Shown here: piece by piece, positions 5,010-62,475 of the stretch
How positions within the stretch are numbered: the first letter of the stretch is position 1
Layout of the letters: every line of letters starts with the position of its first letter
Origin: Methanoculleus chikugoensis
GTDB taxonomy: Archaea; Halobacteriota; Methanomicrobia; Methanomicrobiales; Methanoculleaceae
Length of the DNA stretch: 64,000 nt
Direction of reading: 5' to 3'
NCBI RefSeq assembly: GCF_019669965.1
Contig: NZ_AP019781.1
Span: 1,116,001 to 1,180,000, forward strand
The notes under the pieces: model-generated
Database searches by the model: none
What the model saw: the letters and a program-made list of their open reading frames with translations, nothing else
Told to the model about the DNA's origin: nothing
Translations under genes and position numbers: made by a program

Positions 5010-5873
5010 CCACCTTTTTTGGCCCTGTTGAAATGCTTTCCACAACCTCTGGATAACACTCGGTTACCGGTATAGGTCGATGATGTGGTCTCACGGAGGC
5101 GCGAAGAACGCGAAGTCTGGATGGGTATTGACAGTCTCCCTTCGCGGCTTCGCGTGAGTCGGGGAGGTTTGGATAATCCGGAGATGATTCGTCCTCCGGA
5201 AGAGGATTTCAACAAAGGCCATTTTTTTGTTTGTGCGCCGGGGGTTGCCGGCGCGAGGCATGATCCCGGGATGCACGGTGAAGGCCGGGGCGGTGGTTTG
5301 AGGAAGAGTTGCCGCACGGGGACTGTTTGGGGGTTTTCGGGGTCTTCTTAGCAGAAAAATCCCGTCCAAGGATTTTTAGCGGACTGTGCAACTCGCACCT
5401 GACAGTACTCCTGTTTCATTTCTGACGCATCGTTACGGTTCGAAACCAGGTAACATCTCAAACTCGAACATACGGCCCTGGCCGTGAGAAATCACAGGAC
5501 ACTGGACCGTGGGGATATCGCCATTGGGGGAGGGGCTGACGGGGAGGGGGGTGCAGCCCCCCCCCTGTCTCCACTACATACAAAGACCCCTGTAACCCCC
5601 ACCCCGCCCGGCCTCCTCATTCGCACCTGCGGTGCTTAAACTCCTGCTGTTCCAGCAGTCGTTCCCCGCCCCAAGGGGCGGGGGCAGTGCGTGGCGATAT
5701 CTCCTGGAAAGCCGTGCATGGGGATAGGCGGTGCTCCAGTAAGAGCAAAATTCCGAAAAATCCTTGGACGGGCTCCCTCCGTCAGGGAATACTACGACCC
5801 CCCGGCCGGAAAGAGCCCACAACCGTTCTCACCCGTCGAACCCTGGGTGAAACGGTTCGGTTGCAGAGATATC
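5010..5873. other. Long non-coding region carrying palindromic repeat copy A
   Basis: About 860 bases without a believable gene between two converging transcripts. After a poly-T tract at about 5018-5023 comes roughly 340 bases with no recognisable feature, then the repeat element 5361-5772, then 100 bases to the argF stop. Short open frames here are artefacts of GC-rich palindromes. Confidence 0.6.
5361..5772. repeat. Dispersed palindromic element, copy A
   Basis: A 412-bp element bounded by a perfect 17-bp inverted repeat, CCCGTCCAAGGATTTTT at 5361-5377 and its reverse complement at 5756-5772. Inside are the core ends ATATCGCCA (about 5515-5523) and TGGCGATAT (5692-5700), a G-run/C-run palindrome around TGCA, two stem-loops (5623-5635 and 5644-5658) and CCCCGCCCC-AA-GGGGCGGGG. 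Copy D at 43650-44144 matches along most of its length, but its end repeats have a different sequence. There is no transposase gene. It may be a MITE-like element or a structured RNA/DNA element. Confidence 0.85.
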
Positions 5874-10737: not shown

Positions 10738-11339
10738 CTCACCTGCTCCATACGGAGCCGGGAGGGATCGGGCAACCCCCTCCCCGGCGGCTTTTCTTCG
10801 GTGCTCACGCTCCAGTTTTCACGAACCGTCGCGTCCTACGGGCAGTCGTTCTCAGGGATGTTACACCTTCTTCGGCCAGCTGTGCTCTGCGCCGTCACCA
10901 CTCGCACCAGCGGTGTTCATACGTGACAGTTGGAATTCCCCGGCATGGATTCCGTGGGGACATCGCCCTTGGGGGGGCGGCTCGCGGGGAGGGGGTTCGC
11001 CCCCCTCCCCTGTCTCTACCTCGTACGCGGACATCTGTAACCCCCACCCCGCCCGCGCTTCGCGCTCCTCCCCCGCCCCCGGGGGCGGGGGCAGTGCGTG
11101 GCGATAGGCGATGCCCCTACGGGACATCGCTGGAGAAGACCGAATGTTCTGGGCTTACGACGTCCAGGTAGGCACGGAGTTTGAGCACCGGAGGTGCGCA
11201 CCTCGCACCTCCCTTGAAATCCGTGTCAGTGCGACTGCAGAATATTGCTGGACAGTCCCACCCTCGAATTTTGGCGCGAGTCAAGTATGGATAATCTGGG
11301 AGTCTCGGCCTCCGGGGTGGGGTTCCCGCAGGGCCGATC
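10738..11339. other. Long non-coding region carrying repeat copy B
   Basis: About 600 bases between two converging genes, with no credible coding sequence. It contains the repeat core at 10951-11120. On the minus strand at about 11160-11200 there is a stem-loop pair of the same design as in copies A and D: GCACC-TCC-GGTGC, spacer TCAAACTC, then a degenerate second stem. Confidence 0.6.
10951..11120. repeat. Dispersed palindromic element, copy B (core)
   Basis: Shares the conserved layout of the family: a G-run/C-run palindrome, GTCTCTACC, a CATCTGTAACCCCCACCCCGCC block, GCGCTTCGCGC and a CCCCCGCCCC/GGGGCGGGGG hairpin, ending in GGCAGTGCGTGGCGATA. Its ends pair as GGGG(A)CATCGCC (10956-10967) with GGCGATGCCCC (11107-11117). 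This pairing differs in sequence from copies A and C. Confidence 0.8.
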
Positions 11340-27520: not shown

Positions 27521-27685
27521 TTTCCATTGGGTATCGCCATTGGGGGAGGCGGCTCGCGGGGAGGGGGCGTGCCCCCCTCCCCTGTCTCTACCTTGTACTC
27601 GGACATCTGTAACCCCCACCACCCGCGCTTCGCGCTCCTCCCGCCCCCAAGGGGGCAGGCAGTGCGTGGCGATAGGCGATGGAAA
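27521..27685. repeat. Dispersed palindromic element, copy C (core)
   Basis: Ends pair over two blocks: TTTCCAT (27521-27527) with ATGGAAA (27679-27685), and TATCGCCA (27532-27539) with TGGCGATA (27667-27674), separated by a symmetric 4/4 mismatch. The interior matches copy B closely, with the G-run palindrome, a block of CATCTGTAACCCCCACC and GCGCTTCGCGC. Confidence 0.8.
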
Positions 27686-27864
27686 TCCGTGCATGGGGTT
27701 ATGCGATATTCCGATGGGAACGACAGTCTGCAGGATGCGATGGCCCGGAGAGTGCGACGTTCCAACGGAACGGAGAATGAGAGGACCAAAGGTCTTCGAG
27801 TCCAGAGTTTGTCTTTTGGGACGACCTCATCCTCAATGGGGAGAGACCGGGGGGATGCGCCCTC

Positions 27865-29842: not shown

Positions 29843-30511
29843 ATGAAGATACTTGGGATAAATGGAAGTCCCCGCGCCTCAAGGAGCCAGACGCTCCGGC
29901 TCGTTCAGGCCGTCCTCGACGGGGCAAAGAGCGCCGGAGCGGAGGTGGAACTCGTGGATGTCGCGAAGCTCCGGATCGAGTACTGCATCGGGTGCACGGT
30001 CTGCTACGAGCGGGGGGAATGCGTCAGGAAAGACGATTTTGCCGAACTCTACCAAAAGATGCTCGATAGCGACGGGATTGTTCTCGGGTCGCCCAACTAC
30101 ATCAACTCGGTCACCGCCCAGATAAAGACGATGCTCGACCGGATGGCGGACGCCATCCACTGCCAGATGTTCATCGGGAAGTACGGGTGCGCCGTCTCCA
30201 CGGCAGGCGGCTCCGGGGCGGACGAGGTCGTGGCGTACCTGAACCGGGTTCTGCAGACCCTGGGCGCGAACACCGTGGGCGGCGTCGGCGTGGTTCTCGG
30301 CGGCGACCCGGAGACGATCGTGCCTGCGGAGGGGCGGGCCTACGAGCTCGGGAGAAAACTCGCAAGAGCCATCGAGAAGAAGGAGACCTATCCTGATCAG
30401 GAGGAACTCCACGCTGCGATGCTCGAGGGGATGCGGGCGCTGGTCACGGCAAACAAGGATCGCTGGCACCACGAGTACGACTACTGGAGAGAAGCCGGGC
30501 GGCTGCCCTAA
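29843..30511 (+). CDS. Iron-sulfur flavoprotein / NADPH-dependent FMN reductase family
   Basis: 222 residues with a flavodoxin-like fold: ILGINGSPRASRSQTLRLV (FMN phosphate loop) and LGSPNYINSVTAQIKTMLDRM. The compact cysteine motif CIGCTVCYERGEC at about residues 49-61 matches the 4Fe-4S site of methanogen iron-sulfur flavoproteins, which reduce O2 or peroxide. GGAGGAG precedes the ATG by five bases. Its stop overlaps the stop of the converging HEAT gene by two bases. The last ~16 codons recur as a broken copy at 34164-34218, showing that this gene flanked the duplicated unit. Confidence 0.88.
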   Translation: MKILGINGSPRASRSQTLRLVQAVLDGAKSAGAEVELVDVAKLRIEYCIGCTVCYERGECVRKDDFAELYQKMLDSDGIVLGSPNYINSVTAQIKTMLDRMADAIHCQMFIGKYGCAVSTAGGSGADEVVAYLNRVLQTLGANTVGGVGVVLGGDPETIVPAEGRAYELGRKLARAIEKKETYPDQEELHAAMLEGMRALVTANKDRWHHEYDYWREAGRLP

Positions 30512-33500
30512 CTCTTCTCCGTCTCTTTCGCGCGGATCTCTCTCGCGATCCGCTGCAGCCCTTCCCGGCCTTCCGGCTGCGCTTCCTCGCTCTCCGCCAG
30601 GTCGAGTGCCGGGAGCACCGCCTCGCCCATCTGGATCAGGGCCCATTCGGCCCGTTTTCTGACCGCAAGCGCATCGTCCCTGAGTGCCTGAATGAGCGGG
30701 GCGACAGCGTCTTCTCCCCCGATCCGGTCGATAGCCCGGACGGCATTCGTCCGCACCTCGATCAACGGATCGGAGAGCGCTTCCACAAGTACCGGAAGTG
30801 CGTCGGCGCCGAGCCGTTCCACATCGGCCCACCTCCCCCGCGCCATGAGGTGGATCGTCCGTTCTTCGCCGGTCTCCGGTCTCCAGCCGCCCGCTTCCAG
30901 CGCCTCGGCGACCCCTGCCCGGAACGTCTCGTCCCCCGAGCGAAGAGCGTCGATCAGGTGGCGGCGCATCGTGTCGCCGGGATCCTTCAGGGCCTCGAGT
31001 GCGGCGTACCTGACCCGGTCGTCCACATCGCTCAAGGCCCCGATGAGCGGTTCGAGGGCGCGAAGGTCCCCGATGTAGCCGAGCGACCGCGCGGCGGCAA
31101 CCTTGACCGCCTCGTCCCGGTCCTGCAACGCCAGTGTCAGCGGCTCGATCGCCTCCCTGCTTCCCATGTACCCGAGGGCTTCCGCCACGGCCGCCCGGAC
31201 CGCGCTGTCGCGTTCGCTCTTCAGGGATCCGCTCAGGGCCTCGATGGCCCGTGCGTCTCCGATATTGCCCAGGTTTCGGGCAGCAACCAGCCGGACGAAC
31301 CGGTCTGTGTCGTTCAGGGCGTCCATGAGCGGTTCGACTGCCGCTTCGCGCATCTCGCCGAGAACCCCGGCGGCGGCGCGCTGCAACTCCGGGTCATCGT
31401 CCTTGAGCACCCGGAGCAGCCCTTCGGCGGCCGGCCGCCCCATCGCGATAAGCCGGGTGGCAGCAGACGCCTGCACCTCCACCGACCTGTCATTGAGCGC
31501 AGTGATGAGCGTATCGATCTCTTCCCGGCCCGCCTGTCCGACGGAACTCTTCATGGAGACCTCTTTCTCCTCCCGGGCCCTGTTGCCGAAGGTGCTCTGC
31601 CACATGTTCGCTGCGCGCCGTCTCATGAGTATGGTAGCCGCTTTTTCCCGGACCTCCTGGTCCTCGTCGCTCAGGGCGTATGCCAGTGCCTCGTCCGCTC
31701 TCCCCGGCTCAATCCCCCCGAGGGCATCGACTGCTGCGAGGCGCCCTGCCTTATCTCCTTCGCGCAGCACTGCCGCGAGCGGTTCGACTGCGAGGTTCCC
31801 GTATCCCCCGAGAACCCGGGCGGCAGTCACGCTGACCTCCCGGGCGGGGTCTTCAAGATGCCTGATGAGGAGCGGTATCGACCGGGGGTTCCCGACGATC
31901 CCGATCGCCCTCGCCGCCGTCAACCGGACTACCGGCACCGGGTCCTCGAGTGCCGCTTCCAGCGGCTCAAGCACATCCGGCCCGAACGCCGCAACGGTCT
32001 CGGCTGCGACGGACCGGACCCTGGAGTACCTGTCGCCGAACAGTCGTATGAGCGGGCCGACCGCACACGCATCCCCGATCCGTCCGAGCGCGGCGGCAGC
32101 GGCACTGCGGACATCCTGCTCGGCGTCACCGGTGAGGAGAACCAGCGCGTCGACGCCGTTTTCGTCGCCGATCTCGCCGAGCCCTTCCGCGGCGGCGATC
32201 CTGACCGCGTCGTGCGGATCGGAGAGTGCGGCGATGAGGTACTCGACCGCCGGCGTTCCCATGCTCCGTAGCGCTGTAACCGCCGCGGCCCGAATATCCG
32301 CGTCGTCGCTCTGCAGGGCGTTGAGGCACCGTTCGAGCGATGCCTTCCCCGGTGCCTGCTCCGGAGGTGCGGCGGAGGTGCGTGGTTCCGGCAGGATCGT
32401 CCTCTCCCGCGTTGCAGGAGCGGGTCTCTCCTCTTTTGTGCGCTTCTCATCACCGGTCTCCTGTTCAACGCCCGTATCCGGGACGAGTTCGTCCAGCGAG
32501 ACCGGTCTCCTCGATCCCGGCTGGATCTTCTCTCCGGCCCATGCCTCTTCGGTCTCCGGTCTCTCCTCGAGGAGCTTCCCGACCTCTCCGGCATCTTCCG
32601 ATTGTTGGGCGACGGGTTCCGGCGCGAGGGTGTTCTCCTCCCCCTCGTCGGCCGGTTGCACCTCCTCCGCCCGTGCTGGCGGCCCGCGATGAGCCGGCCG
32701 ACTGTGTGGCCGGGAGGTCGATCCGAAGTGGTCTTCGATTCGCTTCTTGGCGGCAAGCCCCTCTCTGAGTTCCCGGTCGTAATTGGAAGGCGCAGTCTGT
32801 ACTGGCCTTGCCAGGGAGTTCTCCTCGTTGCGCGACCTGATGTAATCCAGCGCAACAGTTGCCTGCTCGCGGATCTCGGGACTGCCCGAATTCATCACCG
32901 CGTGCAGGGCATCAAGCGCGGGTTGTCCCAGTTGCCGCATCGTTTCGCTCGCGCCGGTGCGGACACCCGAGTACTCGACCTCCAGCGCCCGGATGAGCGG
33001 TGGGATGGCCGCCCTTCCCATCCGGATAAGTTCGTTCCACTGCTCCTTTGCGATCAGGTACCCCGCCCGTTCCAGATCGCTCTCCGGAATCCAGTCCAGC
33101 CGGTCCAGCGCCCAGGCCGCCTCCATCCGCACCGGATGGCAGGGATCGTTGAGCGCTTCGACCAGGGCGGGTTTCCCCCGGTCGTTGCCGATCTCCCCGA
33201 GCGCCTCGGCAGCACGTACACGGACGTCCATCTGCGGGTCTTCCAGCGCCCTGATAAGCGCCGGGATGACCCGGGAGTCGCGGATCTTCCCGAGCGCTCG
33301 TACCGACTCGCTCCGGATCCGGTGCTCTTTGCTGCCGAGGCCCTTGAAGAGGACCGGGACGGCTGCCGCCTGGAGTTTGGCGAGTTCCGTCCAGTCTTCC
33401 AGGAGGAAGTAATACCACACCTTCTCCGGGAGTTCGTCGGGCACCCACCGCAGCGCGGCAAGCGCGCCGGCAGCCTCTTTCCGGACCGGGTAATTATTGT

Positions 33501-33945
33501 CGTGGAATGCTTCAACGAGCGGCGGGATCGCCTTTTTGCCCATTCCCCGGATAGCTAGCACCGCGGCGCGCCGGACCGCCGGTTGCTTGTGGTGCAGCGC
33601 GAGCAGCAGCGCTTCAAACATCGAGTCGCCTGTCTCCGCGATTGCGCGGGTGATGGATGCCTGCAGGGTAGGGCTTGCCCTGAGAGTCAGGGCAAGGAGC
33701 AGGGGGATGGATGGAGCGCCGACCGAAGCCAGCGCCCCGAGCATCCGGGCCCGTGAGATGCGGTTGGCATTCTCGAGTCCCTTGAGAAGGTCGGGGACGG
33801 CGGAAACCCCGAGGGCAGAGAGAGCTTGCGCTGCATCGACGCGGCTACCGGGTTCTTCACCGTCCAGGACCGCAATCAGGCTGTGATAATCCGCCGTCTG
33901 CCGTAACCCCTCGATACTCGTCCGGAATTTATCAAAGAATGCCAT
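30508..33945 (-). CDS. Giant HEAT-repeat protein (paralogue 1)
   Basis: 1145 residues, almost all PBS-lyase/HEAT-like repeats of about 31 residues (pattern D..VR..AA.ALG.IGD..A...L..AL.D). Two interruptions occur: a low-complexity charged Pro/Glu/Arg linker at about residues 367-530 and a shorter one at about 775-815. No signal peptide or membrane segment. Such alpha-solenoids act as scaffolds or, in some cases, on bilin or iron-sulfur partners; no partner is evident. The N-terminus MAFFDKFRTSIEGL is shared with paralogue 2. The C-terminal ~150 residues are nearly identical to paralogue 2 at DNA level. Confidence 0.9.
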   Translation of the reverse strand: MAFFDKFRTSIEGLRQTADYHSLIAVLDGEEPGSRVDAAQALSALGVSAVPDLLKGLENANRISRARMLGALASVGAPSIPLLLALTLRASPTLQASITRAIAETGDSMFEALLLALHHKQPAVRRAAVLAIRGMGKKAIPPLVEAFHDNNYPVRKEAAGALAALRWVPDELPEKVWYYFLLEDWTELAKLQAAAVPVLFKGLGSKEHRIRSESVRALGKIRDSRVIPALIRALEDPQMDVRVRAAEALGEIGNDRGKPALVEALNDPCHPVRMEAAWALDRLDWIPESDLERAGYLIAKEQWNELIRMGRAAIPPLIRALEVEYSGVRTGASETMRQLGQPALDALHAVMNSGSPEIREQATVALDYIRSRNEENSLARPVQTAPSNYDRELREGLAAKKRIEDHFGSTSRPHSRPAHRGPPARAEEVQPADEGEENTLAPEPVAQQSEDAGEVGKLLEERPETEEAWAGEKIQPGSRRPVSLDELVPDTGVEQETGDEKRTKEERPAPATRERTILPEPRTSAAPPEQAPGKASLERCLNALQSDDADIRAAAVTALRSMGTPAVEYLIAALSDPHDAVRIAAAEGLGEIGDENGVDALVLLTGDAEQDVRSAAAAALGRIGDACAVGPLIRLFGDRYSRVRSVAAETVAAFGPDVLEPLEAALEDPVPVVRLTAARAIGIVGNPRSIPLLIRHLEDPAREVSVTAARVLGGYGNLAVEPLAAVLREGDKAGRLAAVDALGGIEPGRADEALAYALSDEDQEVREKAATILMRRRAANMWQSTFGNRAREEKEVSMKSSVGQAGREEIDTLITALNDRSVEVQASAATRLIAMGRPAAEGLLRVLKDDDPELQRAAAGVLGEMREAAVEPLMDALNDTDRFVRLVAARNLGNIGDARAIEALSGSLKSERDSAVRAAVAEALGYMGSREAIEPLTLALQDRDEAVKVAAARSLGYIGDLRALEPLIGALSDVDDRVRYAALEALKDPGDTMRRHLIDALRSGDETFRAGVAEALEAGGWRPETGEERTIHLMARGRWADVERLGADALPVLVEALSDPLIEVRTNAVRAIDRIGGEDAVAPLIQALRDDALAVRKRAEWALIQMGEAVLPALDLAESEEAQPEGREGLQRIAREIRAKETEKS

Positions 33946-34163: not shown

Positions 34164-34218
34164 GGACCGCTGGCACCACGAGTACGACTACCGGAAGGAA
34201 GCCGGGCGGATATCTTAG
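34164..34218 (+). pseudogene. Remnant of the iron-sulfur flavoprotein 3' end (duplication scar)
   Basis: Encodes DRWHHEYDYRKEAGRIS then stop, against DRWHHEYDYWREAGRLP at the end of the gene ending at 30511. It is preceded directly by the GalT-like leader sequence, so two sequences that are 7 kb apart elsewhere are fused here. No start or remaining body exists. Confidence 0.85.
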
Positions 34219-37200
34219 GTCCTCCCCGTCTCTTTGCGGATCTCCTCGATGATCCGCTGCAGCCCTTCCCGGCCTTCCGGCTGTGCTTCTTCGCTCTCCG
34301 CCAGGTCGAGTGCCGGGAGCACCGCCTCGCCCATCTGGATCAAGGCCCATTCAGCCCGTTTTCTGACCGCAAGGGCATCGTCCCCGAGTGCCTGAATGAG
34401 CGGGGCGACAGCGTCTTCTCCCCCGATCCGGTCGATAGCCCGGACGGCATTCGTCCGCACCTCGATCAACGGATCGGAGAGCGCTTCCGCAAGCACCGGG
34501 AGCGCGTCGGCGCCGAGCCATTCCACATCGGCCCACCTCCCCCGCGCCATGAGGTGGATCGTCCGTTCTTCGCCGGTCTCCGGTCTCCAGCCGCCCGCTT
34601 CCAGCGCCTCGGCGACCCCTGCCCGGAACGTCTCGTCCCCCGAGCGAAGAGCGTCGATCAGGTGACGGCGCATCGTGTCGCCGGGATTCTTCAGGGCCTC
34701 AAGCGCGGCGTACCTGACCCGGTCGTCCACGTCGTGAAGCGCCATGACCAGCGGTTCCAGGGCGCTGAGATCCCCGATGTAGCCGAGCGACCGCGCGGCG
34801 GCAATCTTGACTCCCTCATCCCGGTCCTGCAGTGCCAGGGCCAGCGGCTCGATCGCCTCCTTGCTTCCCATGTACCCAAGGGCTTCCGCCACGGTTGCCC
34901 GGACCTCGGCGTCGGGTTCCCGGTGCAGGGAGCCGATCAGGGCTTCGATAGCCCGTTTGTTCCCGATCCGGCCCAGGTTGCGGGCGGCAACGAGCCTGAC
35001 GAACCGGTCGCTGTCGCGCAGGGCATCCATGAGCGGCGTGACCGCGGTCTCGCGCATGTCACCGAGGATACTGGCCGCAGCAGACTGGATATCCGGGTCT
35101 TCGTCCCTGAGTGCACGGATGAGGGCGTCCACGGCAGGGCGCCCCATCATGATGAGGCGTGTAGCGGCACCGAGTTGCGTGTTCCAGTCCTTGTCCTTGA
35201 GCGCCCTGATCAGCGTATCGATATCCTGCTGGCCCGACTGCTCGAACGCCTTCTTCTCCTCCAGCCGGACCTTCCTCGTCTTCTTCGGGGTGCACTCCTC
35301 CTCCTCGACCTGGCTGCCGAGCGTCCTCCGCCAGACATCTATCACCTGCCGTTTTCTGAGGGCGGCCGCAGCTTTTGTCCTCACTTCCTCGTCTTCGTCA
35401 TCGAGAGCGTAGCGCAGAACGTCGGCTGCACGCTCGTCCGGTATCTCCCAGAGGGCATCGATTGCGGCAAGACGCACCTCCTTGTTGCCCGTTCTCAGCA
35501 CAAGGAAGAGCGGATCGATCGCCATGGCGCCGAAGGTGCTCAGGGCCCGGGCAACGCTCCACCGGACATCCGGCGCTGTATCTCCCAGGTACGTGATGAG
35601 GAGCGGGATCGACCCGGTTGCGCCGACGAGCCCTATCGCTTTCGCCGCGGTCACCCGGACGACCGGTAAGGGGTCGTTCAGTGCCTCTTCGAGTTCCTTG
35701 AGCGCGCCACGGCCGAACTCCGCGACGGCATCCGCCGCAGCGACCCGGACGCCGTGGTACCGGTCGCGGAAGAGGTGAATGAGCGGCCCAACTGCGCGTC
35801 GGTCGCCGATACGACCGAGCGCCGAGATGACGGCGATCCGCACGTCTTCTCTCGCGTCACCGAGTGCCTGGACCAGCGCCTCGACGGCATCCGGATCCCC
35901 GATCTCGCCGAGCGCTTCCGCGGCGGCGATGCGGACGCCGTAGTGGGGGTCGGTTAACGCTTCGATGAGGTATCCGACCGCCTCCTTCCCCATGCCCTGG
36001 AGCGCGGCGACCGCCGCAGCCCGGATGCTGGCGTCGCTGCTCCTGAGCGCTTCAAGGCACTTTTCGAGCGGCGTCTTTTCAGGGAGCGGTTCGAGGGGTT
36101 CCGGCGGTTCAACCGTCTCCCTCGGGATCTGTGGGATCTCCAGTTCCTGCGGCTCCCGGTCCTCCTCCTCGGGCCGGTAGGCAAACTGCTCCTCCTCTTC
36201 GGCCTCGCCGATCCTGAAGATCTCCTGCTCGAACTCAATCGGAATGAGCTGATCCAGCGAGATCGCACTCTCGGAAGCCGCCGGGATACCGGCCTTCCAG
36301 CGTGCCTTGACCTGTGCCCACGCAGCCTCCGCCTGCTGGCTCTCCCTGATGAGGTCGCTGAGGCTTACGGCCATTTCAGGCTCTTTTGGTGTCTCTTCTA
36401 TGGGCTGCTCGGGCTCGTTTTGCATCTCGTCGCCGGCCGGCGGCGAGGGTTTTTTGACCCGTTCGTCCGGGGCGTAGTTCGGGCGCCCGAACTGCTTCTC
36501 GAACCGTTTCTGGATAGCAAGCCCCTCTTTGAGTTCTTCCTTGTATCTGGAGGCGTCCTCCTGTGCGGGCTTTGTCCGGGACACTTCTTCCTGGCGCTGC
36601 CGGATGTACTCGAGGGCAGCCAGGGCCCGCTGTCTCCGTTCGGGGTCTTTCAACGCGGCTTCCATCTTCAGGGCGCTGAGTGCGGGCTGCCCCAGTTGCC
36701 GCAACGCTTCGCTCGCACCGGTGCGAACACCCGAGTACCCGATCCCCAGCGCCCGGATGAGCGGCGGGATGGCCGGTCCTCCCATCCTGACCAGCTCTTT
36801 CCACTGTTCGCCTGCGATCAGGTATTCCGCCCTCTGCAGGTCGCTTTGCGGCACCCAGCCCAGTTTGCCGAGGGCCCATGCCGCTTCCATCCGCACCTGG
36901 TGGTGGGGATCGTTGAGGGCATCGGCCAGCGGGGGTTTCGCCCGGTCGTCGCCGACCTCCCCGAGCGCCTCGACGGCACGTATGCGGACGTCCGGCCGGG
37001 GGTCTTTTACCGCTTTGATGAGCGGCGGGACAACCCGGGAGTCACGGATCTTCCCGAGGGTTCGCGCCGACTCGCTCCGTACCCGGGGGTCGTCGCTCGC
37101 CAGGGCTTTGAGGAGGGCCGGGACGGCGGCTCCCTGGAGTTTGGCGAGTTCCTTCCAGTCTTCCCGGAGGTAGTAGAACTGCACCTTCTCCGGGACTTCG

Positions 37201-37709
37201 TCGGGCGACCATTGCATTGAGGCGAGCACGTTTGCGGCCTCTCTCCGCACCGAACGGTTGCTGTCGTGGAGCGCTTTCGTGAGAGGGGGGATTGCCTTCC
37301 TGCCCATCCCCTGGAGGGCGATCACCGTGGCACGCCGGATTGCCGGCTGGTCGTGGTGCAGGGCGGGCAGCAGCGTCTCGGCCATCGAGTTGTCCGTCTC
37401 CGCGATTGCGCGGCTGATGGATGCCTGCAGGCCGGGGCTGGCCCGGAGGATCAGGGCGAGGAGCAGCGGGATAGACGGTGCGCCGACCGAAACGAGGGAT
37501 TCGACCATCCGGGCACATGACGCGGGACGGGCATGTTCGAGCGCCCTGAGGATATCCGGGATGGCGGGAACCCCGAGAGCGGTGAGAGCCCGCGCTGCAT
37601 CGGCACGGTTACGGGGGTCATCGCTGTTCAGAACCGCAACCAGGCCGGGATAGTCCTTCGCCTGCTGTAACCCGTCGACGTTCGTCCGGAACTTATCAAA
37701 GAATGCCAT
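34215..37709 (-). CDS. Giant HEAT-repeat protein (paralogue 2)
   Basis: 1164 residues with the same plan as the 1145-residue neighbour: HEAT repeats from the N-terminus (MAFFDKFRTNVDGL), an acidic linker at about 370-548, repeats, a short basic linker at about 785-831, then a C-terminal repeat block. The two linkers differ strongly between the copies, while the last third is almost identical. It is soluble and has no catalytic motif I can recognise. The gene is divergent from the GalT-like gene. Confidence 0.9.
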   Translation of the reverse strand: MAFFDKFRTNVDGLQQAKDYPGLVAVLNSDDPRNRADAARALTALGVPAIPDILRALEHARPASCARMVESLVSVGAPSIPLLLALILRASPGLQASISRAIAETDNSMAETLLPALHHDQPAIRRATVIALQGMGRKAIPPLTKALHDSNRSVRREAANVLASMQWSPDEVPEKVQFYYLREDWKELAKLQGAAVPALLKALASDDPRVRSESARTLGKIRDSRVVPPLIKAVKDPRPDVRIRAVEALGEVGDDRAKPPLADALNDPHHQVRMEAAWALGKLGWVPQSDLQRAEYLIAGEQWKELVRMGGPAIPPLIRALGIGYSGVRTGASEALRQLGQPALSALKMEAALKDPERRQRALAALEYIRQRQEEVSRTKPAQEDASRYKEELKEGLAIQKRFEKQFGRPNYAPDERVKKPSPPAGDEMQNEPEQPIEETPKEPEMAVSLSDLIRESQQAEAAWAQVKARWKAGIPAASESAISLDQLIPIEFEQEIFRIGEAEEEEQFAYRPEEEDREPQELEIPQIPRETVEPPEPLEPLPEKTPLEKCLEALRSSDASIRAAAVAALQGMGKEAVGYLIEALTDPHYGVRIAAAEALGEIGDPDAVEALVQALGDAREDVRIAVISALGRIGDRRAVGPLIHLFRDRYHGVRVAAADAVAEFGRGALKELEEALNDPLPVVRVTAAKAIGLVGATGSIPLLITYLGDTAPDVRWSVARALSTFGAMAIDPLFLVLRTGNKEVRLAAIDALWEIPDERAADVLRYALDDEDEEVRTKAAAALRKRQVIDVWRRTLGSQVEEEECTPKKTRKVRLEEKKAFEQSGQQDIDTLIRALKDKDWNTQLGAATRLIMMGRPAVDALIRALRDEDPDIQSAAASILGDMRETAVTPLMDALRDSDRFVRLVAARNLGRIGNKRAIEALIGSLHREPDAEVRATVAEALGYMGSKEAIEPLALALQDRDEGVKIAAARSLGYIGDLSALEPLVMALHDVDDRVRYAALEALKNPGDTMRRHLIDALRSGDETFRAGVAEALEAGGWRPETGEERTIHLMARGRWADVEWLGADALPVLAEALSDPLIEVRTNAVRAIDRIGGEDAVAPLIQALGDDALAVRKRAEWALIQMGEAVLPALDLAESEEAQPEGREGLQRIIEEIRKETGRT

Positions 37710-43552: not shown

Positions 43553-44266
43553 GGCGAACTATTCCGGCTCGCGGTTGCGCGGGGCGCAACAGGTTGCAGG
43601 GTCGATCCGTTGCGCTCTGAACTGTTGTTTTCTGGGATTCCTGCAAAGCCCATCTACGGATTTTTCAGCGGCTGGGCTACTTGTAACTGATAGTGCTTCT
43701 GTTTCAGTTCTAGCGAATCTTGCGATTTGAACTCAGTGACGTCTCAAACTCGAACACGAAGCATAACTGTGAGAGATCCCGTGCACTGGACCGTGGGGAT
43801 ATCACCATTGGGGGGAGGGGCTGACGGGGAGGGGGGTGCAGCCCCCCTCCCCTGTCTCCATCCCTTAAGGGGGCATGTAGCCCCCACCCCGCCCGCGCTT
43901 CGCGCTCCTCCCCCGCACCTGACGGTGCTTTAACTCCTGCCGTTCCGGCAGTCGTTCCCCGCCCCGAGGGGCGGGGGCAGCGCGTGGCGATATCGCCGGG
44001 AAAGCCGTGCATGGGCGCAGGCTCCTTATGATGCGTTTTCGAAAATAGAGGGAGTGGCTCTGAGTTGTGATATTATATTAGAACTAACGTGGGAGGCATG
44101 CCCAGTCCGGGCTTCACAGCCGTACCTGAAAAATCCGTAGATGGAATTATGCAACGGCTGAATTTACAGGCTCATGTAAACCAGCCAGACTTCGTCCTGC
44201 GATCGTCAACTATCACAAAGTTCGATTAAAAGAGAGTGCGGGTGGCCGGGCAGCGAACCAGTTTAT
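43553..44266. other. Long non-coding region carrying repeat copy D
   Basis: About 710 bases between converging nth and the phosphate transporter gene. Contents: nth 3' flank, repeat element 43650-44144, then 120 bases including GGCTGAATTTACAGG with no identified feature. No gene. Confidence 0.6.
43650..44144. repeat. Dispersed palindromic element, copy D
   Basis: 495 bp bounded by a perfect 19-bp inverted repeat, CCATCTACGGATTTTTCAG at 43650-43668 and its complement at 44126-44144. The left ~130 bp and the core are homologous to copy A. Core ends are ATATCACCA and TGGCGATAT; stem-loops at 43915-43928 and 43937-43951 are followed by TCGTTC and CCCCGCCCC-GA-GGGGCGGGG. The end repeats differ in sequence from those of copy A while remaining perfectly paired. 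Confidence 0.85.
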
Positions 44267-49987: not shown

Positions 49988-50029
49988 AGCCGTCTCCCTC
50001 CCAAAATTGACACTCTACCTCTTTTAGTC

Positions 50030-50113
50030 CCCCCACCGCCCGCGCTTCGCGCTCCTCCCGCCCCGGGAGGGGGGCGGGCAGTCCGTGGCGATAGCCGGGG
50101 GAAAGCCGTGCAC
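50030..50113. repeat. Dispersed palindromic element, right half only, copy E
   Basis: Contains the right part of the family: CCCCCCACCGCCC, GCGCTTCGCGC, a CCCGCCCC-type hairpin, GGCAGTCCGTGGCGATAGCC and GGAAAGCCGTGCAC. The left half (ATATCGCC end and G-run palindrome) is missing. Confidence 0.75.
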
Positions 50114-50138
50114 AGTTCTTTCCGAAACCCCCCTATGA

Positions 50139-50305
50139 AGTGGACCGTGGGGGTATCGCCATTGGGGGTGGGGCTGACGGGGAGGGGGGTGCAGCCCCCC
50201 TCCCCTGTCTCAACTACATACAAAGACTCTTGTAATCCCCACCCCGGCCGCAAGGGGCGGGGGCAGTCCGTGGCGATAGCCGGTGGGAAGCCGTGCACGG
50301 TCCTT
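50139..50305. repeat. Dispersed palindromic element, copy F
   Basis: Compact full copy: TATCGCCA at the left pairs with TGGCGATA at the right. The central palindrome GGGGAGGGGGG (50179-50189), loop TGCAG, CCCCCCTCCCC (50195-50205) is a perfect 11-bp stem. It lacks the stem-loop pair seen in A and D. It starts 25 bases after half-element E. Confidence 0.8.
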
Positions 50306-50451
50306 CCCGAATCTCATCATGAAGTGAACTAAGGGGATATTACCCGGGGGAACGTCCACAGAACGGGATTTCGACCACCGTCAGGTGCGGGGAGAGCAGG
50401 GTATTAGTGGTCAAACCCTTCGCGGCCTCGTATGAGGAACTGGCACCGGAG

Positions 50452-60643: not shown

Positions 60644-62221
60644 TCAGGCCCGGCCCGCGCTGTACGTGAGCAGGGTCGCTCCTGATTCATCGAGGAGATC
60701 GAGCCGGTTCCCGTCGATCCGGTAGCCTGCAACCGAGGTAAGGAGGTTGAGGTACCGGTTCTCCTGCTCCATGACGCCTTCCGGCTCGCCGCAGTACATC
60801 TTCGTGCTGATCGGCGGCTCAATGCTGAGTTCAGCGCCGTCGAGCTGGTAGCCGGCCCCGTAGGAGTTGCACCCGGCGTTGCCGCCGACGTTGCCGTCGG
60901 GCGAGAAGACCGCGGTGATCGTGGTCCCTGCGATCACCGAGGAGACGGACTCCCCGTCGGGGCTGCTGAAGGACTCGAGCGTCCACTCCGTCCCGGCGAG
61001 CGGTGCCGGCGGGACCTCCTCGGCCTGCACGAAGAAGAGGAGGTCGGTGCCCTCCGCGTCCGTGAGGATCAGGCGGTCGCCTTCCGTCCGGTAGGAGGAG
61101 ACGTTCGCGAGGTGGCTCATGAACGCCGCCTCCTGTTCCATGACCCCCGGCGTCTCGCAGTACATCAGGGTGCTGAAGAGCGACGAGACCGAGAGGTTCG
61201 CGCCGTCGAGGGAGTACTCGCCGCCGTAGTGGTTGCACCCGGCGTTCCCGCCGACGTTGCCGTCGGCCGCGAAGTTCGCGGTGACCTTCGTGCCGACGAT
61301 CACCGAGGAGATCGCGTCTCCATTGGTGCTGTAGGACTCAAGCACCCAGTCCGTTCCGACGAGCGGGAGGTTGGGCGTTTGTGCGGCTTTCTCGAAGACC
61401 AGCAGGTCGGTGCCGTCGCTGTCGGCGAGGATCAGCCTGTTGGCCTCCATCCGGTAGGAGGCGACATCGGTCAGGAGCGCAAGGTAGCGGTCCTCCTGGT
61501 CCATGATGCCGGGCGGCTCGTTGCAGTACATCTCGGTCCTGACGGCCGGCTTGATGGTGAGGGTTGCGCCGTCCACGGTGTAGTCCGCGCTGTAGTGGTT
61601 GCACCCGGCCGATCCGCCGAGGCTGCCCTCTGCGCTGAAGGTCACCGTCACGCCCGTGCCGTCAAGGACCGGCGTTTGGGTGCCGTTCTCCCCGGCGAGG
61701 CTCACAAGCGTCCACCAGGTGTTTCCCGCGAGCCCCGTGGGCGCGTCTTCCTCAACGAAGATGAGCGTCGTCGCTCCAGCAGCGTCGGTGATGACGAGCC
61801 GGTCGTTCTCGATCCGGCATTCAGCCGCCGAGCCGAGGAGATCGATGAACCGCGCCTCCTGCTCCATGATGCCTTCGGGCTCCGTGCAGAGTTTCAGCGT
61901 CTGGACGAGCGAAGAGACCGAGAGGCTCGTGCCGTCGAGCTGGTAGTCGCCGCCGTAGCCGTTGCACCCGGCGGAGCCGGCGACCTTGCCGTCGGGGCCG
62001 AAGGCCGCCGTGACCTCCGTTCCCGGCAGAACCGGGACGAGCGTGCCGTTCTCGTCGAGGTACGAATCGAGAGTCCAGGAGGTTCCGGCAAGCCCGACGA
62101 CCGTACCGGGCGTCGACGTGCCCCCCGTGCACCCCGCGACGACGATGCACGCCACGACTATGACGAAGAGCGATGCCGCCGTGAGGATGGTGTTCCTGTT
62201 CCTTTGTCTGTTCGGTGCCAT
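60644..62221 (-). CDS. META-domain lipoprotein, four repeats
   Basis: 525 residues. Signal peptide with lipobox VVAGC (LFVIVVACIVVAGCTGG), then four tandem META domains each with a GSAGCN or GNAGCN core (VAGSAGCNGYGGDY, LGGSAGCNHYSADY, VGGNAGCNHYGGEY, VGGNAGCNSYGAGY) and an EGVMEQE-type second block. It would be anchored outside the cell. The ATG at 62221 (MAPNRQRNRN) has a TTTATCAC box about 27 bases upstream, giving a leaderless message; the frame stays open further upstream. Probable parallel duplication with the 283-residue gene. Confidence 0.88.
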   Translation of the reverse strand: MAPNRQRNRNTILTAASLFVIVVACIVVAGCTGGTSTPGTVVGLAGTSWTLDSYLDENGTLVPVLPGTEVTAAFGPDGKVAGSAGCNGYGGDYQLDGTSLSVSSLVQTLKLCTEPEGIMEQEARFIDLLGSAAECRIENDRLVITDAAGATTLIFVEEDAPTGLAGNTWWTLVSLAGENGTQTPVLDGTGVTVTFSAEGSLGGSAGCNHYSADYTVDGATLTIKPAVRTEMYCNEPPGIMDQEDRYLALLTDVASYRMEANRLILADSDGTDLLVFEKAAQTPNLPLVGTDWVLESYSTNGDAISSVIVGTKVTANFAADGNVGGNAGCNHYGGEYSLDGANLSVSSLFSTLMYCETPGVMEQEAAFMSHLANVSSYRTEGDRLILTDAEGTDLLFFVQAEEVPPAPLAGTEWTLESFSSPDGESVSSVIAGTTITAVFSPDGNVGGNAGCNSYGAGYQLDGAELSIEPPISTKMYCGEPEGVMEQENRYLNLLTSVAGYRIDGNRLDLLDESGATLLTYSAGRA

Positions 62222-62475
62222 ACACCTGCATATGGGCGGGAATGAGTGATAAATGAATTGTAGGCTACGAAAAAAATCGAACCTATACATGGCCGGTTTG
62301 TCAAACCCGGTGATTATATGGTTTATCTGGGTTCTGTTATGTTATGCCGCCTAATGGCGAGGGGCGAGCTGTCCCGCCGTATTTGGGCGTTGCGGCATCG
62401 TTCGCCGGGCACCTTCCTGCATATGCAAGGGTTTTATCCGGGTGGGTCCCATACCGGGTGCGGAAGAAGAGTACT

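Follow-up and report, generated by a model that had tools for sequence, protein, structure and literature searches.

Among the mobile elements of bacteria, inversion in place has been described for ISWpi1 in Wolbachia. Ling and Cordaux (2010) reported that ISWpi1 copies occur inverted at orthologous sites and that the two ends of these copies had been converted to a single sequence; they argued that the terminal repeats of 23 bp recombine with each other (PMC3004938). Inversion of Correia elements has been noted in a review (PMC10969869). The two elements described here, denoted A and D, are located in a 64,000-nucleotide stretch of the Methanoculleus chikugoensis genome (the window). As in ISWpi1, the interior is found inverted at orthologous sites, the ends appear to have been made identical by conversion, and short repeats apparently suffice. 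Unlike ISWpi1, A and D are archaeal, transposase-less and, by parsimony, flipped at least 4-5 times at one locus; furthermore, their end variants differ between species at one locus, and a second, inner repeat pair marks flips. The elements also resemble MITEs, such as Correia of Neisseria and the QMITEs of Coxiella (PMC10969869), in being shorter than 500 bp, lacking a gene, having inverted ends and occurring in many intergenic and truncated copies, but the family is GC-rich rather than AT-rich; here, no parent transposase was found among the matches listed, and no target-site duplication could be read. In human Y chromosome palindrome P6 (PMC3723533), inverted arms are kept identical by conversion and occasionally invert; A and D appear to behave alike, with arms of 17-50 bp versus the much longer arms and multi-kilobase conversion tracts of P6.

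Taken together, the observations presented below make it probable that A and D (Table 1) are ancient, full-length members of a MITE-like Methanoculleus family that lacks a transposase, and that they are fixed at two syntenic intergenic sites.

Table 1. Copies A and D, their modules, and further family copies in the window
Feature	Position	Strand	Remarks
Copy A of the element	5361..5772	+	intergenic; between convergent DUF2114-side genes (+) and argF (-)
Copy A, left end repeat CCCGTCCAAGGATTTTT	5361..5377	+	
Copy A, right end repeat	5756..5772	-	inverted match of left end, 17/17
Copy A, left arm (LA)	5378..5507	+	common to copy D; in this genome, A and D loci only
Copy A, dispersed core (CL-CR)	5507..5700	+	GC-rich hairpins; ~40 places in this genome, genus-wide dispersal
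Copy A, inner inverted repeat, left, GTGGGGATATCGCCA	5509..5523	+	
Copy A, inner inverted repeat, right, TGGCGATATC	5692..5701	-	
Copy A, right arm (RA)	5701..5755	+	family right end CCCATGCACGGCTTTCC inside, minus strand
Copy D of the element	43650..44144	+	intergenic; between convergent nth (+) and PHO4-family phosphate transporter (-)
Copy D, left end repeat CCATCTACGGATTTTTCAG	43650..43668	+	
Copy D, right end repeat	44126..44144	-	inverted match of left end, 19/19
Core-only family copy	~10952..11110	+	without matching outer ends
Core-only family copy	~27524..27707	+	
Double core-only family copy	~50029..50311	+	

The sequence-only reading of this stretch had reported perfect inverted ends within each copy, which is borne out at every position. 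The end pairs of A and D are the window's sole perfect inverted repeats of at least 15 bp whose arms are separated by 300-600 bp; in 100 first-order Markov simulations, the mean number of such repeats was 0.05, and a length of 17 bp was reached in 2. The copies are 412 bp (A) and 495 bp (D) long and contain no gene, as is typical of MITEs, and their interiors are homologous (80% identity over 366-371 bp). Only at A and D was the long outer left arm detected in this genome (G000), making these the only full-length copies. The argument that an ordinary transposon would have the same ends in every copy applies only in part: both A and D display variants of a single family end, CCC[A/G]T[G/C]CACGG[A/C]TTTC.

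The core of the family is represented by 97 BLAST pieces at its separate places in this genome, and family matches were detected in all 24 other Methanoculleus genomes searched, with few outside the genus. Typical copies encompass an imperfect CCC[A/G]TGCA... at both ends and strong GC-rich hairpins but no gene; terminal inverted repeats, a hallmark of MITEs, are thus imperfect in typical copies and perfect in A and D. According to a crude ORF-based call, 17 of the 30 family copies in G000 (L001-L030) lie between convergent genes and one between divergent genes, as expected for promoter-avoiding elements. In the relatives, the full-length copies that were found occupy the same two sites, beside argF (A) and beside nth (D), which are ~35-38 kb apart in those Methanoculleus genomes where both are on one contig. 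The orthologous loci were gathered via the flanking genes, and an ArgF scan of the genome contigs re-found the same species set at the A locus; end pairs were located by similarity to the consensus. The comparison involves sequence only, with one genome per species, including G010 (Methanoculleus sp. Afa-1), G014 (M. chikugoensis) and G044 (M. sediminis). A likely empty A site is present in G024 but contains no readable target-site duplication, and for D, there is no usable empty site. Among the matches listed in searches of the literature on Methanoculleus repeats, there was no account of this family.

The window also contains two adjacent paralogous genes on the minus strand (30508-33945 and 34215-37709) for proteins of 1145 and 1164 aa that are composed of HEAT repeats along nearly their entire length; the duplication seems to be fairly recent, given DNA stretches with up to 94% identity. 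Another minus-strand gene (60644-62290) encodes a protein with four tandem META domains, with a DNA period of ~366 bp. Directly after nth in G010 and G049 (L165 and L161), a CRISPR-like array (GTTTCAATCCCTATCGGGTTTTCTGATG[A/C]GCTGTGAC with differing spacers) occupies the place of the D locus where other species carry the element.

The end sequences differ between species at both loci. At A, the ends are CCCGTCCAAGGATTTTT in G000, CTC/CCCGTCCAGGG in G010 and G019, CTCGTCCAGGG/CCCGTCCAAGG in G014, and CCCATCCACGG on both sides in G008, G048 and G045. At D, CATCTACGG is found on both sides in G000, G044, G042 and G019, and CATCCACGG on both sides in G048 and G004; the ends are mixed (T/C) in G003 and show two single differences in G005. 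The mean end mismatch within copies is 1.44/16; between copies, it is 2.60 at A (permutation p = 0.002) and 2.21 at D (p = 0.009), with kinship ignored in both tests. Thus, the covariation of ends between copies that was originally perceived from A and D is real at these two loci. Changes on both sides affect 5 of the 16 end positions (17 cells versus 6.1 expected, with none of 500 shuffles as high), although the matched changes represent few independent events.

These distributions bear on the possibility that A and D belong to two transposon subfamilies with different fixed ends and transposases of their own, such that the ends match from the time of insertion. Each of the two end types is conserved at its own locus in part of the genus, as this scheme predicts, yet at A, the end types vary between species (CCCGTCCAAGG, CCCGTCCAGGG, CCCATCCACGG) while staying nearly matched within a copy. 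Furthermore, no transposase element with such ends was among the matches listed, and a search for a parent transposon by end pattern in 35 genomes yielded, among the matches listed, no pairs 1-3 kb apart but only facing end pairs separated by 300-380 bp. Given also that G000 has no full-length copies besides A and D, an origin from two such subfamilies appears extremely improbable.

The family as a whole does not share this matching of ends. In the 56 other family copies, an end matches its own partner no better than a foreign one (11.00/17 versus 11.02/17, p=0.64). At the A locus itself, the copies in G044, G005, G004, G007, G011 and G042 have no recognisable partner end, and in G050, the core is lost and the ends have diverged. 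One family copy away from both loci, L236 (G044:C13:13334-13642), is a rare instance with perfectly matched 17-bp ends (CCCGTGCACGGATTTCC).

The comparison of orthologous loci revealed both orientations of the element, as with ISWpi1. At A, the arms have the orientation seen in the window (+) in G000, G010, G008 and G048, and are inverted in G003, G011, G016, G014, G019 and G042; at D, they are + in G000 and G042, and inverted in G003, G005 and G019. Parsimony requires a minimum of 5 flips at A (15 taxa), or 4 under stricter calls (10 taxa), and 2 at D (5 taxa), on a species tree from ~3.7 kb in which several nodes are weak and two analyses disagree in places. G010 (+) and G014 (inverted at A) are sister species with 100% bootstrap. 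The position of the breakpoint can be gleaned from the left end of A, where the outermost T of CTC stays at the left flank in G010 (+) as well as in G014 and G019 (inverted). Because this flank-side CTC/CCC difference stays put in both orientations, the crossover maps inside the end repeat, and since excision followed by re-insertion would have moved the T, the element was not re-inserted whole. Breakpoints inside the repeat together with homogenised ends are what recombination between terminal repeats of the ISWpi1 type leaves behind.

Such recurrent inversion might also be expected of a genetic switch in which the ends are sites of a recombinase, with the layout AAATCC-7 bp-GGATTT in D and on the left side of A, and with a spacer match required as it is for tyrosine recombinases. 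The 7-bp segment is indeed spacer-like, that is, matched within a copy and variable between copies, with AAATCC/GGATTT alike at three of the four sites. However, the right end of A lacks the outer AAATCC arm in the species seen and nevertheless inverts, and the unrelated inner repeats (GATATCGCCA) mark flips too. G000 encodes a single tyrosine recombinase (PF00589) and a single resolvase-family protein (PF00239), both far from A and D; neither a nearby or dedicated recombinase nor uniform sites, the attributes of site-specific invertible elements, were found in this genome. Both loci lie between convergent genes, and accordingly, there is no promoter that would obviously be switched. Site-specific inversion therefore seems quite improbable.

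The clearest sign of sequence transfer between ends comes from the A locus of G008, where the ends are perfect over 50 bp. Three substitutions that are private to the left arm of G008 among the species seen are also present in its right end, and the right end of G048 differs from that of G008 at 21 of the 50 positions. The shared private substitutions mark this as a conversion of 50 bp from arm to arm.

The sequence-only reading had left two explanations for the perfect pairing of changed ends, namely, selection for pairing and intra-copy repair or gene conversion between the ends. The inverted orthologs, the fixed flank base and the copied arm in G008 favor the latter, and conversion would explain the matched ends such that selection for pairing is not needed. 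Under the former, the ends would pair to close the stem of a long, functional hairpin, either transcribed or extruded from DNA, and compensatory mutations would maintain this stem. Folding with the ends paired is indeed far better than that of shuffled sequences for both strands of A and the plus strand of D (z -5.5, -5.2 and -8.6), the both-sided stem changes exceed those in shuffles and slid controls, and many one-sided stem changes are G-U. Nevertheless, G-U cells number ~13 against 12 for the other non-standard cells, with no clear preference, and Rfam gave no match at the element, the only match in the window being a tRNA. The lack of end pairing across the family, the A copies without a partner end and the diverged ends in G050 fit less well with such selection, as do the many orthologs with the interior inverted against fixed flanks and the matched ends of G008 that run 33 bp beyond the 17-bp end repeat. 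We consider selection for pairing unlikely, although it may act at A and D alone.

The scenario that we find likely is that recombination between the ends flips the element and converts one end to the other, thereby keeping the ends matched. The inverted ends of one copy would recombine with each other; a crossover between them would flip the interior, and the accompanying heteroduplex or conversion would render both ends of that copy identical. A mutation arising in one end would then be lost or be copied to the opposite end; within a copy, the ends would thus stay alike, whereas they would diverge from locus to locus and from species to species. At the sequence level, the comparison of species demonstrates repeated inversion, breakpoints within the repeat, one arm conversion, and unmatched ends elsewhere in the family. 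From this pattern, we infer general homologous (RadA-type) recombination or template switching, as opposed to a dedicated recombinase, and conversion would be the main cause of every matched change. Repeats of 17-19 bp are short for homologous recombination. Ling and Cordaux, however, drew the same inference for ends of 23 bp (PMC3004938).

The order of the modules suggests that the inner repeat acts like the outer one. G014 and G019 have reversed arms around a core that keeps its orientation, and in these two genomes, the inner repeat CGTGGGGATATCGCCAC matches perfectly across 17 and 15 bp, respectively. About 6 of the 24 left core ends in this genome are joined to a right-type arm. In L013, L003, L006, L021, L022 and L023, the core adjoins the arm type that belongs to the opposite side, which would fit a flip of the core at GATATCGCCA. 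G045 has a D-type arm at A, and G042 and G003 have an A-type arm at D, an arrangement suggestive of exchange of arms between the two loci. It is conceivable, if rather far-fetched, that A and D are nested, actively inverting archaeal switches in which the outer and inner pairs flip independently, arms move between loci, and recombination frequent in populations acts on the 3' ends of the flanking genes.

The process that apparently operates at A and D is known for bacterial insertion sequences and here is seen repeatedly in an archaeal genus; it is not a new kind of system. What these loci seem to provide is a natural archaeal case in which the 'covariation' of ends comes from recombination, not from selection for base pairing, and hence a reason for care when RNAs are sought by covariation in inverted repeats. 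Because many species carry the locus in both orientations, recombination over 17-19 bp of homology in a methanogen is directly testable.
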